From Flavobacterium cupriresistens (GTDB lineage: Bacteria > Bacteroidota > Bacteroidia > Flavobacteriales > Flavobacteriaceae), in NCBI RefSeq assembly GCF_020911925.1, contig NZ_CP087134.1, forward strand, positions 3,100,001 to 3,164,000: a DNA stretch of 64,000 bases, written 5' to 3'. Within the stretch, counting starts at the first letter, position 1; the number at the start of each line of letters is the position of its first letter. Below the pieces are notes generated by a model that made no database searches, was not told where the DNA came from, and saw only the letters and a program-made list of their open reading frames with translations. Both the position numbers and the translations under genes were made by a program. This document shows, in pieces, positions 35,414 through 41,021 of the stretch.

Positions 35414-36703
35414 TTACCCCAAAAACGCCTTCAATTCCTCATAAGTCCCAATCTTCACACTCACTTTCTCTTTATTCATAACACTCTCAATTTGTGTCGG
35501 AATAGGAAGCGTAATTCCCAATGCTGGTTCAACCACATCTAAAAACTTAATTGGATGAGCCGTTTCTAAGAAAATACCAATAGCATTTTCGTGTTTTTGC
35601 AGTTCTTTTTTCAAGCCTAAGTACCCAACAGCGCCATGTGGTTCTGCGATGTAACCGTCGGTATTGTAAATGTTTTTTAGAGCAACTAATGTTTCTTCAT
35701 CCGTATAACTATACGAAGAGAAATCTTTCTCGAAAGCTTTTAAGTCATTGTTGTACAATTCCTGTATTCGGATAAAGTTACTTGGATTTCCAACATCCAT
35801 AGCATTAGAAATGGTTGCTTTAGAAGGCTTCGGATCGTATTTTCCGTTTTCTAAAAATCTTGGCACTGTATCGTTTACGTTTGTAGAAGCTACGAAATGT
35901 TCAATAGGTAAACCTAATTTTTTTGCCATAATTCCGGCACAGATATTTCCGAAATTCCCGCTTGGACACGAGAAAACCAGCGGTTTGTTTTGATTTTTCA
36001 AGGCTTTGTAGGCAAAGAAAAAATAGAACATTTGCGGTAACCAACGCGCAATATTGATAGAATTTGCCGAGGTCAAATTTTTATGTGCCAAGGTTTCGTC
36101 TAAAAACGCTTTTTTAACCATATCCTGACAATCATCAAAAACACCATCAACTTCCAGTGCTTTTATGTTTTGTCCTAAAGTAGTCAGTTGTTTTTCCTGA
36201 ATGTCACTCACTTTTCCTGACGGATATAAAATGACCACATCAACGCCGTCAACGCCTAAAAATCCACTGGCAACAGCACCGCCTGTATCTCCTGAGGTTG
36301 CTACTAAAACAGTGTTTTTAGCTTCTTTTTTGTCTTTGTTAAAGTACGCCAGGCAACGCGACATAAATCGGGCTCCGACGTCTTTAAAAGCCATTGTTGG
36401 GCCGTGGAATAATTCTAACGAATAAATTCCGTTTTCGACTTTCACCACCGGAAAATCAAAACACAAAGTCTCGGCAATAATTTCTTTTAAAGTTGAAGCC
36501 GGAATTTCGTCTCCAACAAATTGTTTAATCGCTTCAAAAGCTATTTCTTCGTGACTTAAACTTTCGATTTTATCAAAAAAAGAAGGATCTAGAGGCGTAA
36601 TCGTTGAAGGGAAATACAATCCTTTATCACTTGCCAGTCCTTGTATCACAGCTTCCTGAAAAGAAACTTCAGGAGCGTTATGGTTTAAACTATAATATTT
36701 CAT
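35414..36703 (-). CDS. thrC: threonine synthase
   Basis: Last step of threonine synthesis: O-phosphohomoserine to threonine, PLP-dependent. The 429-residue sequence carries the family start MKYYSLNHNAPEVSFQEAVI, the PLP lysine K107 in FHGPTMAFKDVGARF, the TSGDTGGAVASGF loop, and CPSGNFGNICAG for the phosphate. Third gene of a minus-strand thrA-thrB-thrC operon. The 212-bp spacer from thrB contains a REP-like palindrome, which may attenuate or stabilise the transcript. Confidence 0.97.
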   Translation of the reverse strand: MKYYSLNHNAPEVSFQEAVIQGLASDKGLYFPSTITPLDPSFFDKIESLSHEEIAFEAIKQFVGDEIPASTLKEIIAETLCFDFPVVKVENGIYSLELFHGPTMAFKDVGARFMSRCLAYFNKDKKEAKNTVLVATSGDTGGAVASGFLGVDGVDVVILYPSGKVSDIQEKQLTTLGQNIKALEVDGVFDDCQDMVKKAFLDETLAHKNLTSANSINIARWLPQMFYFFFAYKALKNQNKPLVFSCPSGNFGNICAGIMAKKLGLPIEHFVASTNVNDTVPRFLENGKYDPKPSKATISNAMDVGNPSNFIRIQELYNNDLKAFEKDFSSYSYTDEETLVALKNIYNTDGYIAEPHGAVGYLGLKKELQKHENAIGIFLETAHPIKFLDVVEPALGITLPIPTQIESVMNKEKVSVKIGTYEELKAFLG

Positions 36704-36915: not shown

Positions 36916-37839
36916 TTACAAAATCCTTACCCCATCAGGATTAATCTTCGAAACGTGAATTTCATAAGGCAGATTCATCTTTTCGTAAACGTCGCTCATG
37001 GCTTTTGCAATTCGGTTTGCGGTTTCTTCTCCGCGGCTTAAAGCGAAAATGGAAGGACCGGAGCCTGAAATTCCTGAACCTAAAGCGCCGTTTTCTAGGG
37101 CAGTTTGTTTAATTAAATCAAAACCTGGAATCAAAACGCTTCTTAAAGGCTCTACGATTTCATCATGAAGCGAACGTCCGATCAGGTCATAATCTTTGGT
37201 GTACAATCCGGCTACTAATCCGCCGACATTTCCCCATTGCATGATGGCGCTTTTAAGGGAAACATTTTGTTTTAATACCGAACGGGCATCAGAGGTTTTC
37301 AACTCGATTTGAGGATGAACCACCGTAGCAAACAATTCTTCCGGACTGTCAATTCTAATAATGTCAAGCGGACTGTAACTTCTTACCAAAGTAAAACCGC
37401 CTAAAAGGGCAGGGGCAACGTTGTCTGCATGCGCATTTCCACTAGCTAGTTTTTCGCCTTGCATGGCAAATTGCACCAAGTCTTTTCTGGAAAAAGGTCT
37501 TCCCAACAATTCGTTGATTCCGAAAACAGCTCCCGCAGAACTCGCGGCACTGCTTCCAATACCGCTTCCGGCTTTGATATTTTTGTAGATTTCAATTTCA
37601 AAACCAAAATCCAATTCCTCTAAGGTTTCCAACATCGCTAAAGCAGCCACCCCTGAAACATTTTTTTCTGTTTCTAATGGCAAATCGGCACCAATAATTT
37701 TAGTAATTCGTACCCCTTTTTGATCCGATTTCCGAACAATCATTTCGTCACCCGCGTTGTCTAAGCAAAGTCCAAGCACGTCAAATCCACACGAAAGATT
37801 CGCGATTGTTGCCGGGCAAAATAGTTTTATTTCTTTCAT
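36916..37839 (-). CDS. thrB: homoserine kinase
   Basis: Phosphorylates homoserine to O-phosphohomoserine. The 307-residue GHMP-family protein shows the substrate motif SCGFDVLGLCLDN, the ATP loop GSGIGSSAASSAGAVFG (about 91-107), and the C-terminal GSGISGSGPSIFALS. All typical lengths. Middle gene of thrA-thrB-thrC; the spacer from thrA has a short inverted heptamer repeat. Confidence 0.97.
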   Translation of the reverse strand: MKEIKLFCPATIANLSCGFDVLGLCLDNAGDEMIVRKSDQKGVRITKIIGADLPLETEKNVSGVAALAMLETLEELDFGFEIEIYKNIKAGSGIGSSAASSAGAVFGINELLGRPFSRKDLVQFAMQGEKLASGNAHADNVAPALLGGFTLVRSYSPLDIIRIDSPEELFATVVHPQIELKTSDARSVLKQNVSLKSAIMQWGNVGGLVAGLYTKDYDLIGRSLHDEIVEPLRSVLIPGFDLIKQTALENGALGSGISGSGPSIFALSRGEETANRIAKAMSDVYEKMNLPYEIHVSKINPDGVRIL

Positions 37840-37928: not shown

Positions 37929-40376
37929 TTATATGTTTCCAATTCTAATCACATCTGCAAAAATCCCTGAAGCGGTAACCGCTGCACCTGCTCCGGCACC
38001 TTTTATAAGTAAGGGCTGATCGACGTAGCGATCGGTGTAGAACAAAACGATGTTGTCTTTTCCTTCTAAATTATAAAAAGGATGCTCTTTTGGGATAAAC
38101 TGTAAACCAACGCTCGCTTTTCCGTTTTCGAATTGTGCTACATATTTTAGCCTTGAATCTTTGTTTAAAGCTTCTTCGTAAATGTTTTCGAAATGGGGTG
38201 CATGTTTGATTAAGGTTGCAAAAAAGTCATCGTTGTTTGTTGTCGATAAACATTCGGCAGGCAAAAACGATTCGTTGGCAATGGCGTCAATATCCATTTC
38301 GTAACCGCTTTCGCGAATGAGAATCAGGATTTTACGAGCCACATCGATTCCGCTTAAGTCAATTTTAGGATCAGGTTCGGTAAATCCTTGTACTCCGGCT
38401 TCTTTTACCACATCGTGAAAAGAGTTGTTTTTATCGAAATTATTAAAGATAAAATTCAGACTTCCCGATAAAACGGCTTGAATTTTATGCACTTTATCAC
38501 CTGAAGCAATTAAGTTTTTTACGGTATCAATAATAGGTAATCCCGCACCAACATTTGTTTCAAACAAAAACGGAGCATTGTACTGACGCGATAGGTTTTT
38601 TAGTTTTTTATAGTTGGCATATGCAGAGGAACAAGCAATTTTGTTACAAGTTACGACTGCCATACTTTGTTTTAAAAACTGTTCATAGGTATCGGAAACG
38701 CTTGCATTTGCTGTGATGTCAACAAAAATACTGTTACGTAAATTCATTTCCTTAGCACGTTCGATAAAGGCTTCTTTGTTGGCTGGTTCTCCTTTGTCTA
38801 AATCATTTTGCCATTCTTTAAGCGAAATGCCGTCTTCGTCAAAAAGCATTTTTCTGGAATTGGACAAAGCAATCACACGAACATTAATCTTCAGATTGTC
38901 TTTTAAGAATTTCTTCTGATTGTGAATTTGCTCGATGAACTTTTCTCCAACATTTCCAACACCCATTACAAACAAATTAAGCTGTTTGGTGTTTTCTTCA
39001 AAGAAATTCTCATGTAAGGTATTCAGTGCTTTTTTAACATCTCTTTCGTTGATTACAGTCGAGATATTACGTTCAGAAGCACCTTGTGCAATGGCACGGA
39101 TGTTTACGTTATTTTTCCCCAGAGTGCTAAACATTCTACCGCTTAGACCTTGGTGATTTTTCATGTTTTCGCCAACCAAAGCAATGATGCAAAGGTCTTT
39201 TTCTACGATACAAGGATCTATTTTGTTTTGAAGGATTTCAATTTCAAAAGCTCTGTTGATTGCGGCCTCGGCATTTTCTGCGTCAGAATTCAAAATTCCG
39301 ATACAAATAGAGTGTTCAGAAGAAGCTTGAGTGATAAAAATAACATTTATTTTTTCCTGAGACAATACTTCAAACAGACGTTTTGATGAACCCGAAACTC
39401 CAATCATTCCAGGGCCTTCCAACGTTAACAAAGAAATATGATCAATATGGCTGATTCCTTTTACAACAGTATCTTTTGATGAAACCTGATCCGAAATTAA
39501 AGTTCCTTCGGCTTCGGGTTCAAAAGTATTTTTGATTAAAATTGGAATATTTTTCCTTAAAACGGGTTGAATTGTAGGTGGATAAAGCACTTTTGCCCCA
39601 AAATGAGACAATTCCATAGCTTCTTGGTATGAAATAGTAGCAATGGGTCTTGCTTGTTTTACAATTTTAGGATTTGCGGTAAACATTCCGTTTACATCAG
39701 TCCAGATTTCCAGTTGTGTTGCATTTAAAGCGCCGGCAATAATAGCAGCAGTATAATCAGAGCCACCACGACCTAAAGTGGTAGTAATTCCGTCAAGAGT
39801 GGAGGCAATGAATCCCGGTAAAATAGTAATTTGTGATTCGTTTTCAGTAAAATAGTCGTGAGTTAATTGATTGGAGATTTCAAAGTTAACAACTGCTTTA
39901 CCAAAGTTATTATTGGTTTTAATGAGCTCACGGCTGTCTTTGTAAACGGCATTTTTATCGATTTGCAGGTAAGCTTGTGCAATGATAAAAGACGATAACA
40001 ATTCACCGAAACTTAAGATAGTATCTGCTGTTCTAGGAGATAATTCTCCCAGCAAGAAACAACCGTCCAATAAAGTTTCTAAATGATTTATAATTCTTTT
40101 GATATGACTTAACAAGCTACTTTGTTCGCTTACCGGAATCAGTTCTTTTAAAGTGTCAAGATGTTTTTTCTCGATTTCGGCAATAATTTCCCTGAAACTT
40201 TCGTCGTTGGCTGCGGCTTTTGCAGCTGCCAATTGAAGAAGGTCCGTTACTTTGCTTAATGCGGAAACCACTACAGCTACTTTTTCCTGTTTGGAATTTT
40301 GGTTTATTATTTCGAGAGCGAGCTTTATATTTTGTGCATTGGCAACCGAAGTTCCGCCAAATTTTAATACTTTCAT
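37929..40376 (-). CDS. thrA: bifunctional aspartokinase / homoserine dehydrogenase
   Basis: First and third steps from aspartate to homoserine. The 815-residue fusion begins MKVLKFGGTSVANAQNI (aspartokinase, catalytic KFGGTS), includes GRGGSDYTAAIIAGAL, a central regulatory ACT region (about 310-460; LTLEGPGMIGVSG and LVGENMKNHQGLSG), and a homoserine dehydrogenase domain starting LNLFVMGVGNVG with TNKIACSSAYANY and EPDPKIDLSGIDVARK. The ATG at 40376 is preferred to an upstream in-frame start at 40403. A Thr-rich leader peptide gene and hairpin lie upstream, suggesting attenuation by threonine. Confidence 0.97.
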   Translation of the reverse strand: MKVLKFGGTSVANAQNIKLALEIINQNSKQEKVAVVVSALSKVTDLLQLAAAKAAANDESFREIIAEIEKKHLDTLKELIPVSEQSSLLSHIKRIINHLETLLDGCFLLGELSPRTADTILSFGELLSSFIIAQAYLQIDKNAVYKDSRELIKTNNNFGKAVVNFEISNQLTHDYFTENESQITILPGFIASTLDGITTTLGRGGSDYTAAIIAGALNATQLEIWTDVNGMFTANPKIVKQARPIATISYQEAMELSHFGAKVLYPPTIQPVLRKNIPILIKNTFEPEAEGTLISDQVSSKDTVVKGISHIDHISLLTLEGPGMIGVSGSSKRLFEVLSQEKINVIFITQASSEHSICIGILNSDAENAEAAINRAFEIEILQNKIDPCIVEKDLCIIALVGENMKNHQGLSGRMFSTLGKNNVNIRAIAQGASERNISTVINERDVKKALNTLHENFFEENTKQLNLFVMGVGNVGEKFIEQIHNQKKFLKDNLKINVRVIALSNSRKMLFDEDGISLKEWQNDLDKGEPANKEAFIERAKEMNLRNSIFVDITANASVSDTYEQFLKQSMAVVTCNKIACSSAYANYKKLKNLSRQYNAPFLFETNVGAGLPIIDTVKNLIASGDKVHKIQAVLSGSLNFIFNNFDKNNSFHDVVKEAGVQGFTEPDPKIDLSGIDVARKILILIRESGYEMDIDAIANESFLPAECLSTTNNDDFFATLIKHAPHFENIYEEALNKDSRLKYVAQFENGKASVGLQFIPKEHPFYNLEGKDNIVLFYTDRYVDQPLLIKGAGAGAAVTASGIFADVIRIGNI

Positions 40377-40439
40377 TTTGATGATTTTTTTTCTTTGATG
40401 CAAATATTTTTATCTATCCAATAGCTTTCTTCTTTTTAG

Positions 40440-40481
40440 AAAAAAGTATAGACAATCAGGATTATATGTAAAAGTGTATAC
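40440..40481 (-). terminator. attenuator-like hairpin between thr leader and thrA
   Basis: Minus-strand arms GTATACAC and GTCTATAC (one C-C mismatch) around a 20-base loop, followed by six T residues. The stem begins two bases after the leader stop codon, and ends about 64 bases before the thrA ATG. Its stability is modest, so the termination role is provisional. Confidence 0.45.
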
Positions 40482-40483
40482 CC

Positions 40484-40582
40484 CTAAGGGGTAGTTGTTG
40501 TAGTAGAAATTGTGGTAACAGCAATTACAGCTCCGATTGGAGTTACTGTAGAAGATTGATATGTAGTGCTGTTACTTTTCAT
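40484..40582 (-). CDS. thrL: threonine operon leader peptide
   Basis: A 32-codon ORF (ATG 40582, TAG 40486-40484) upstream of thrA. It encodes 11 threonines, five of them consecutive (residues 27-31, TTTTTP at the end), with three isoleucines (16, 20, 25). It starts MKSNSTTYQSSTVTP. Five Thr codons just before the stop, then a hairpin with T-run, then thrA, is the layout of a classical ribosome-mediated attenuator as in E. coli thrL. It has its own -7 box. It is too short to appear in most annotations. Not related in sequence to E. coli thrL. Confidence 0.85.
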   Translation of the reverse strand: MKSNSTTYQSSTVTPIGAVIAVTTISTTTTTP

Positions 40583-40592
40583 TTTGATTTTT

Positions 40593-40600
40593 CAAAAGTA
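40593..40600 (-). promoter_or_regulatory. -7 box of the thr leader
   Basis: Minus strand TACTTTTG, exact TAnnTTTG match, 10 bases before the leader ATG. The transcript would start within a few bases of the leader start codon. No TTTG -33 is seen at 19 bp. Confidence 0.55.
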
Positions 40601-41021
40601 CAGTTTTTTATAAAAGTTAAAAATCTTTATTTTCTTTTTGCGAATATTTCATTATTTCAAAAATATAAAATTCAATATTGAGTATTTTATAAAATTCAAT
40701 ATATAAAATAAGCTTATTCGTATATTTATTTACTTTTTATTGAGGTCGTTAAGTCAAAAGTTGTTTGAATTTAATGACAAATTCAGTTGAAAAAGCGGTT
40801 TAGTCTATAAATTTAATAGACTTTTTAGTTTTTTGATTTTCTGAGGACTATTAAAAAATCGGTTTATTCGGGTTATATGTTATCATAAGATTTATATGGT
40901 TAATAATGTGAAATGATTAGAATTGGCAATATTAGATTGTGGCAATTTTAATTATTATGAACAAATGTTGCTTTTTAATATTGATTTGTTGAATTTTGAC
41001 ATCTTAAAATATTTAAACAAC
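40601..41021. other. spacer between thr leader and hutH with AT-rich direct repeats
   Basis: Contains a 15-mer direct repeat TATAAAATTCAATAT at 40664-40678 and 40688-40702, 24 bp apart, and the 18-mer AAATTCAATATATAAAAT (40692-40709) shared with the XRE operator region at 34959-34976. No gene is seen. The start of hutH is at 41022; an open frame from 40923 in the same phase is not supported by family similarity. Confidence 0.6.

Follow-up and report, generated by a model that had tools for sequence, protein, structure and literature searches.

A conserved threonine leader upstream of thrABC in Flavobacterium whose output part departs from the textbook form

In E. coli, the thrL leader peptide, which contains Thr and Ile codons, precedes thrABC, and the corresponding Rfam family carries the name Thr_leader. 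The tnaC leader of the same species is Rho-dependent and senses free tryptophan through its nascent peptide. The 2004 attenuator survey by Vitreschak and others reportedly covers some Bacteroidetes. For the Actinobacteria, the available portion of PMC1262725 describes leaders without terminators as well as codon runs that overlap terminators. Among the Bacteroidota, the accessible part of PMC9723704 gives clues for leader-peptide attenuation upstream of F. psychrophilum amino-acid operons, and the thr leader may figure in the supplement of that paper; leader-like short ORFs in B. thetaiotaomicron and the distances between leader ORFs and genes are treated in the available parts of PMC7366714 and PMC4833913, respectively. 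Among the papers listed in a literature search, judged by title and the start of the abstract, none has the thr leader of Bacteroidota as its subject.

This study examined a 64 kb window, i.e. the whole stretch of DNA from 3100001 to 3164000 of a 5.74 Mb Flavobacterium genome (G000:C1). Positions given below are those of the window, and the features described lie on the minus strand. The window contains a real, well conserved leader of the thr operon, the output part of which departs from the textbook form.

The thr operon and its leader peptide

In the profile search, the gene behind the leader was recognized as thrA, encoding a bifunctional aspartokinase/homoserine dehydrogenase I (37929..40376, start codon ATG at 40376; NF006959, 1053.6 bits against a cut-off of 726), with thrB for homoserine kinase (36916..37839; TIGR00191, 228.5 bits) and then thrC for threonine synthase (35414..36703; TIGR00260, 304.1 bits) downstream, in agreement with the first-pass annotation, which had placed the leader ahead of thrABC. 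The leader ORF (40484..40582, stop codon TAG at 40486-40484) ends 107 nt before the thrA start and encodes, from an ATG, the peptide MKSNSTTYQSSTVTPIGAVIAVTTISTTTTTP; its proposed 32 codons with 11 Thr and 3 Ile on the minus strand were verified, as was the TAnnTTTG promoter box claimed 10 bases before its ATG. This -7 box reads TACTTTTG and occupies 40593..40600, and 79 of the best 80 of 208 named loci have such a box at 10-12 nt 5' of the leader ATG. According to the available text of PMC6847099, 4-5 nt separate the box and the start site in F. johnsoniae; with that spacing, transcription would start near 40588 and the 5' UTR would be about 6 nt long.

Conservation was followed in three sets of sequences. 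The genus sample comprised 80 thrA upstream regions with a full-length match of 58-95% identity, out of 100 other genomes listed, and reached 81 sequences with the window included; for the family sample, a single upstream region per genus was taken, 40 in all out of 148 listed outside the genus. The named set held the best 80 of 208 thrA loci at 88-95% protein identity (77 titled Flavobacterium and three Flavobacteriaceae bacterium), its genomes being partly shared with the genus sample. Leaders were located by a script that looks for a C-run/G-run hairpin, called H1 here, preceded by at least three AC- or AT-type codons (Thr, Ile, Met) in six. H1 was detected in this way upstream of thrA in 77 of the 81 genus sequences and in 33 of the 40 family regions (110 of 121 together), and H1 followed by CATAY (CATA plus T or C) was present in all 80 named loci. 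Thus both the Thr-rich ORF and the hairpin are kept in related thrA leaders, the very point on which the first-pass annotation had staked its reading of a thr operon leader.

The script found no H1 in four genus sequences (L065, L066, L067 and L082). An H1-like hairpin is visible by eye in L082 as well as in L109 and L117, which the script also missed, and L083 was counted with an odd H1 with a 7-nt loop. Neither a leader nor H1 was seen in the 440 nt upstream in L065, L066 and L067 of the genus or in L118, L120, L125 and L127 of the family, absences that count against the reading given here. As a separate observation, L082 and L083 have divergent leaders with Ser-rich or Ser/Thr ends and an altered H1, and may sense other codons.

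Within the peptide, the codons for the operon product are clustered (11 of 32 are Thr) and the cluster is conserved. The run of five Thr codons, ACT ACA ACA ACT ACC (40490..40504), is the sole match in the 64 kb window, compared with a mean of 0.05 five-ACN-codon runs in shuffles, 5 of 100 of which had one. The run itself therefore stands as first described, whereas its supposed position immediately before the stop does not, as one Pro codon intervenes. Genus leaders commonly end in TTTTTTP, TTTTPLG or TTTTPFGV, and the five codons preceding the final ACC specify Thr in 74, 72, 72, 65 and 55 of the 77 genus leaders. Across eight positions of these leaders, the third bases of the Thr codons are T in 206 cases, A in 192, C in 25 and G in 10, and this free third base argues for selection on the amino acid; the codon rule of the H1 finder favours Thr and Ile, but not to the observed degree. 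In the 33 family leaders, Ile is at least as frequent as Thr at codons -1, -4, -7 and -8. As judged from this conservation, which supports sensing well, the leader very probably senses threonine supply, and it is most likely a cis-acting Thr/Ile sensor of thrABC.

Hairpin H1 and the conserved motif behind it

The sequence ACCCC-UUA-GGGGU at 40480..40492 forms H1 and overlaps the last Thr codon, the Pro codon and the stop, its 5' arm starting within the last Thr codon and the stop codon falling inside the hairpin. The first-pass annotation had reported a hairpin with a T-run right after the ORF; the adjacent hairpin is present as H1, overlapping the stop, and the T-run behind it is absent. The predicted free energy is -7.6 kcal/mol with one extra flanking U-A pair included. 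As an isolated 16-mer, H1 has a z-score of -1.74, with 17 of 200 shuffles folding equally well, and the whole leader region folds better than shuffles (z -3.42). On the opposite strand, a side observation concerns the near-palindromic nature of H1 (40479-40493), which when read on the plus strand runs into the T-rich complement of the Thr codons; the consensus scan therefore calls an opposite-strand terminator there.

All five H1 pairs are standard in 109 of 117 sequences, a count to be read with the C and G runs that the finder itself demands. The fifth pair is exchanged for U-G in 10 and for U-A in 3 of the 117. Two-sided changes were confined to one cell of the A-type alignment, and shuffles do as well; in the 51-sequence alignment, the H1 pair counts are not above shuffles because the stem hardly varies. 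A single fold for the whole 76-sequence alignment was tried and set aside, having yielded just three H1 pairs. In three genomes of one other family (L151, L153 and L154), a swapped-arm H1, ACGGG..CCCGU, occupies the same place; since these genomes all belong to one family, it perhaps reflects a single event. The position of H1 in distant genomes, the few exchanges at the fifth pair and the swapped-arm clade together point to H1 being maintained as an RNA structure.

Behind H1 lies a stretch that is almost free of G, followed by the conserved motif CATATAATCC (40459..40468), 12 nt past the G run in the window. In the genus, the 12 nt after H1 contain 4 G in 924 bases, with a T fraction of 0.50, and in the family 22 G in 396. 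The distance from H1 to the motif is 11 nt in 42 and 12 nt in 31 genus leaders (73 of 77), CATA is invariant across the 76 aligned genus sequences (alignment A1), and a CATAY no more than 36 nt from the start of H1 is present in 76 of 77 genus leaders versus 16 of 33 family leaders. Spacing of 10-12 nt was found for 15 of the 33 family leaders, and by eye a YCCG-like stretch follows the motif in many family members. The motif is thus firm in the genus and looser in the family. By itself, the pattern GGGGT-N6-16-CATATAA shows no enrichment in the genome, with 3 matches compared to 5 in the reversed control. A covariance model of H1 plus motif (R1) singles out the thr locus: among 10 hits at E<=10 in the same genome, thr scored 1.1e-12 and the next hit 0.6. 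The element is therefore thr-specific in this genome.

The composition of this stretch also bears on a Rho-dependent, tna-like reading, according to which G-poor, C-containing RNA past the stop would load Rho once the ribosome has left, with a stalled ribosome barring Rho. Positions 13-24 after H1 do contain more C than G (C 0.21 and G 0.06 in the genus, C 0.29 and G 0.11 in the family), a strong intrinsic terminator is lacking, and the available part of PMC1262725 mentions mycobacterial cys operon leaders without obvious terminators for which Rho was proposed. However, the C excess of the genus is gone at positions 25-60 (C 0.12, G 0.15), the spacing between H1 and CATAT would be superfluous, and a ribosome held in the Thr run, upstream of this RNA, would leave the RNA free, giving control of the wrong sign unless its closeness blocks Rho. 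Rho-dependent control is consequently regarded as quite unlikely.

Search for a terminator and the proposed read-out

The first-pass annotation had envisaged a terminator and antiterminator of the E. coli type, and this scheme was not supported. In the predicted fold of the leader, the T6 run (40440..40445) falls within the 5' arm of another hairpin, H2 (40415..40454), the most stable one predicted, which has no U-tract behind it. Between the leader and thrA, the best terminator-like site in the window is a weak hairpin ending at the T-run (GGTATAC..GTCTATACT plus TTTTT) at -3.7 kcal/mol, so that an intrinsic terminator was not recognized there; refolded with GGGG paired to U, the same hairpin reaches -5.8 kcal/mol (z -0.43). 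Among the leaders with H1, the scan for a hairpin plus U-tract returned none in 36 of 77 for the genus and 16 of 33 for the family, and sites at or below -8 kcal/mol were present in 2 of 77 and 0 of 33, respectively. The positive controls accepted by the same scan ranged from -13.9 to -22.5 kcal/mol. Additionally, the tail of H1 has only 4 T in its first 8 nt in 61 of 110 leaders and 6 T in 4 of 110, compared to 7-8 T behind the his, ilv and trp terminators. By these comparisons, the thr leaders with H1 appear to lack a strong intrinsic terminator.

A classical attenuator could nevertheless be drawn with four segments, in which H1 would be the 1:2 pairing, AGGGGUAUA with UAUACUUUU the 2:3 pairing, and H2 the 3:4 pairing, blocking transcription without a U-tract. 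These pairings exist in the window, where segment 3 coincides with the 5' arm of H2, and a consensus fold of H2 was obtained in 29 close relatives, with TATACTTTT in 28 of the 29, without two-sided changes. The mutually exclusive pairing that such a scheme needs, GGGGUAUA with downstream RNA, is possible on paper in the window but shows no advantage over shuffles in 110 leaders (200 dinucleotide shuffles for each), with a mean z of +0.10 in the 77 genus leaders and +0.79 in the 33 family leaders. H2 itself does moderately better than shuffles among the genus leaders (mean z -1.49, with z below -1.5 in 31 of 77) and is weak outside the genus (mean z -0.72, 8 of 33), and in the window it is not followed by a U-tract. 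Moreover, the 3' arm of the swapped-arm clade is C-rich, meaning that a G-rich arm paired with downstream pyrimidines cannot be a general feature. The four-segment attenuator is therefore judged unlikely.

A further possibility is that H1, the motif or H2 governs translation of thrA or processing of its mRNA, either through ribosome access or through a cleavage site with H2 protecting the 5' end as a hairpin. The stability of H2 in the predicted fold would suit such a role, hairpins at this place in the genus beat shuffles on average, and mRNA structure tunes translation initiation in F. johnsoniae according to the accessible part of PMC6847099. Against this, the distance between the element and the thrA match varies in the family from 36 to 237 nt (median 63), and in some relatives H2 and thrA are separated by long inserts. 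Base pairing between the motif and the thrA start likewise gave no cognate signal, cognate pairs being no better than non-cognate pairs among 33 family and 77 genus leaders. Of the readings considered for the output of the leader, control of thrA translation or mRNA processing is given the lowest probability.

The reading preferred in this study is a ribosome-gated, Thr/Ile-sensing leader with H1 itself as the read-out, a serious possibility although still short of probable. When charged tRNA-Thr is scarce, the ribosome translating the leader would slow or stall in the run of Thr codons. Given the size of the ribosome footprint, a ribosome in the last few Thr codons would mask the 5' arm of H1, in which the run ends, and H1 could not form; RNA polymerase would then proceed into thrA. 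With ample threonine, the ribosome would reach the stop inside H1 and leave, and H1 would form, causing RNA polymerase to pause or to be released in the A/U-rich, nearly G-free stretch near CATATAATCC. H1 would in this way be the sensor partner and the stop signal at once, dispensing with a separate terminator and antiterminator. Hairpin-stabilised pauses occur at a distance of about 11-12 nt, and with the spacing seen here the polymerase would sit at CATAT. In four relatives (L090, L093, L096 and L144), TTTAATT stands behind H1 (-5.3 to -6.4 kcal/mol); this arrangement resembles an intermediate between a terminator and the form in the window, as though H1 had degenerated from a terminator, and it was counted in favour of H1 as the read-out.

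Several points count against H1 as the read-out. The hairpin is short, its tail is poor for intrinsic termination and the motif is loose outside the genus; H2 is left without a role in this scheme. Early Thr codons could stall the ribosome before H1. A ribosome on the stop codon would also cover H1, so that its release must be quick or well timed, or the polymerase must wait.

Distribution and comparison with known leaders

A second covariance model (R2) was built from 51 sequences. At E<=0.1 it returned 79 hits, distributed over 78 of 199 family-sample genomes, and 50 of these 78 genomes were outside its training set. All but one of the 79 hits lie less than 600 nt upstream of a listed thrA on the same strand, at 36-237 nt (median 63). 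The genomes of L104, L116 and L122, in which the script had found H1, were missed by R2, and 78 of 199 is therefore a lower bound. Applied to 396 class genomes, R2 gave 18 hits, ten of them outside the genus, of which three were family genomes whose hits had already been located 5' of thrA. An aspartokinase start lies no more than about 200 nt away from five of the seven remaining hits (L183, L184, L185, L189 and L190), two of which, L184 and L189, come from genomes that had served in building the model; L188 and L191, with no aspartokinase start downstream, were taken as chance.

Reading of 22 class-level thrA upstream regions, out of 24 listed matches to the fused thrA (44-55% identity, two partial), revealed an H1-type leader in six (L141, L144, L148, L160, L167 and L168, with L160 being Thr-poor), the swapped-arm H1 in three, and a classical leader plus terminator in four (L149, L150, L155 and, less surely, L152). 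The assignment of L152 is uncertain, as it has few Thr codons and a hairpin whose poor T-run kept it from being accepted by the terminator scan. No leader or H1 was seen in the 440 nt upstream in the other nine (L142, L143, L145-L147 and L156-L159). Within the family of the window itself, L123 (G304) has the Thr leader MKHIITNTTTTTTGTS with a classical terminator at -14.2 kcal/mol. H1, classical and swapped-arm forms thus stand upstream of orthologous thrA genes, so that one architecture takes the place of another at orthologous positions.

Two further observations concern the surroundings of the element. Many genus members, L006, L010, L012, L016 and L019 among them, carry a similar sequence of about 77 nt (AGTCGCAGTTTTCAGTTTCAGTTCACAGT...CTTTGCACCTTA) in the interval from H2 to thrA; others lack it, and it resembles a small repeat insert. 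The genome also encodes a second fused aspartokinase/homoserine dehydrogenase (L161; G000:C1:1628584-1630986; 36% identical), upstream of which no such leader was found; an ORF ends less than about 25 nt before that gene, and likewise before its counterparts in five relatives (L162-L166).

Compared with E. coli thrL, the leader shares a Thr/Ile-rich peptide ahead of thrABC with a fused aspartokinase/homoserine dehydrogenase, but lacks a U-tract terminator of normal strength and a supported antiterminator, and its stop codon is held within H1. With the families of Rfam 15, Thr_leader among them, no match at gathering score was obtained in the 64 kb window; at E<=10 in 40200-40900, four sub-threshold matches (snR39, AniS, SNORA25 and mir-194) were all on the opposite strand. 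A covariance match to the T-box riboswitch was likewise absent, both from the window and from 40200-40900 at E<=10. The likeness to tnaC lies in a leader peptide followed by unstructured RNA past the stop, with no intrinsic terminator immediately after; the codons here, unlike those of tnaC, point to tRNA-Thr.

Among the actinobacterial leaders in the available portion of PMC1262725, those of ilvB resemble the present one in that control codons overlap a hairpin, although the ilvB hairpins carry poly-U tails, and the mycobacterial cys leaders resemble it in having a leader peptide without an obvious terminator. The LEU element described there differs in that it is a pseudoknot, the base stem of which pairs control codons with the Shine-Dalgarno box of leuA. 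That portion of the paper does not mention a CATAT-like motif or a threonine operon.

Nearer comparisons are offered by the classical thr leaders of other Bacteroidia (L149, L150, L155 and L123), which share the Thr/Ile-rich leader before thrA. They differ in their intrinsic terminators (-14.2 to -22.5 kcal/mol), and an ACCCC..GGGGU hairpin was not visible by eye at their stop codons. In the genome of the window, classical leaders, which served as controls, precede hisG (L138, MISIQLHHHHFHYCSQAMC), ilvD (L139, MQISIIIISVIVVNVINTSASGMV) and trpE (L171, MRTILNNTWWWKNLRQTS). Like the thr leader, each has a short ORF with control codons before its operon (HHHHFH, IIIISVIVV and WWW); unlike the thr leader, each is followed by a strong intrinsic terminator, at -17.4 kcal/mol with 7 T in the first 8 nt for his, -13.9 kcal/mol with 8 T for ilv and -16.5 kcal/mol with 8 T for trp. 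As all three of the other leaders examined here have the classical form, the thr leader stands out as the exception in this genome.

It is proposed, tentatively and with more doubt than for H1 as the read-out at this locus, that Bacteroidota may possess a second kind of ribosome-gated thr leader, in which a single hairpin that swallows the stop codon and a CATAT...CC(G) element behind it would give RNA polymerase a pause or stop independent of a U-tract, and which would have replaced, or been replaced by, the classical terminator within one class, while in the genome of the window the leaders of his, ilv and trp stay classical. The thr operon of a large bacterial group seems to be controlled by a leader without the textbook output module. 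H1 plus CATAT, in the form of model R2, provides a ready marker for annotating thr leaders where the Rfam families were silent in the window. Overall, a thr leader beside three textbook leaders in one genome offers a contrast for finding which signals of Bacteroidota stop RNA polymerase other than a hairpin plus U-tract.
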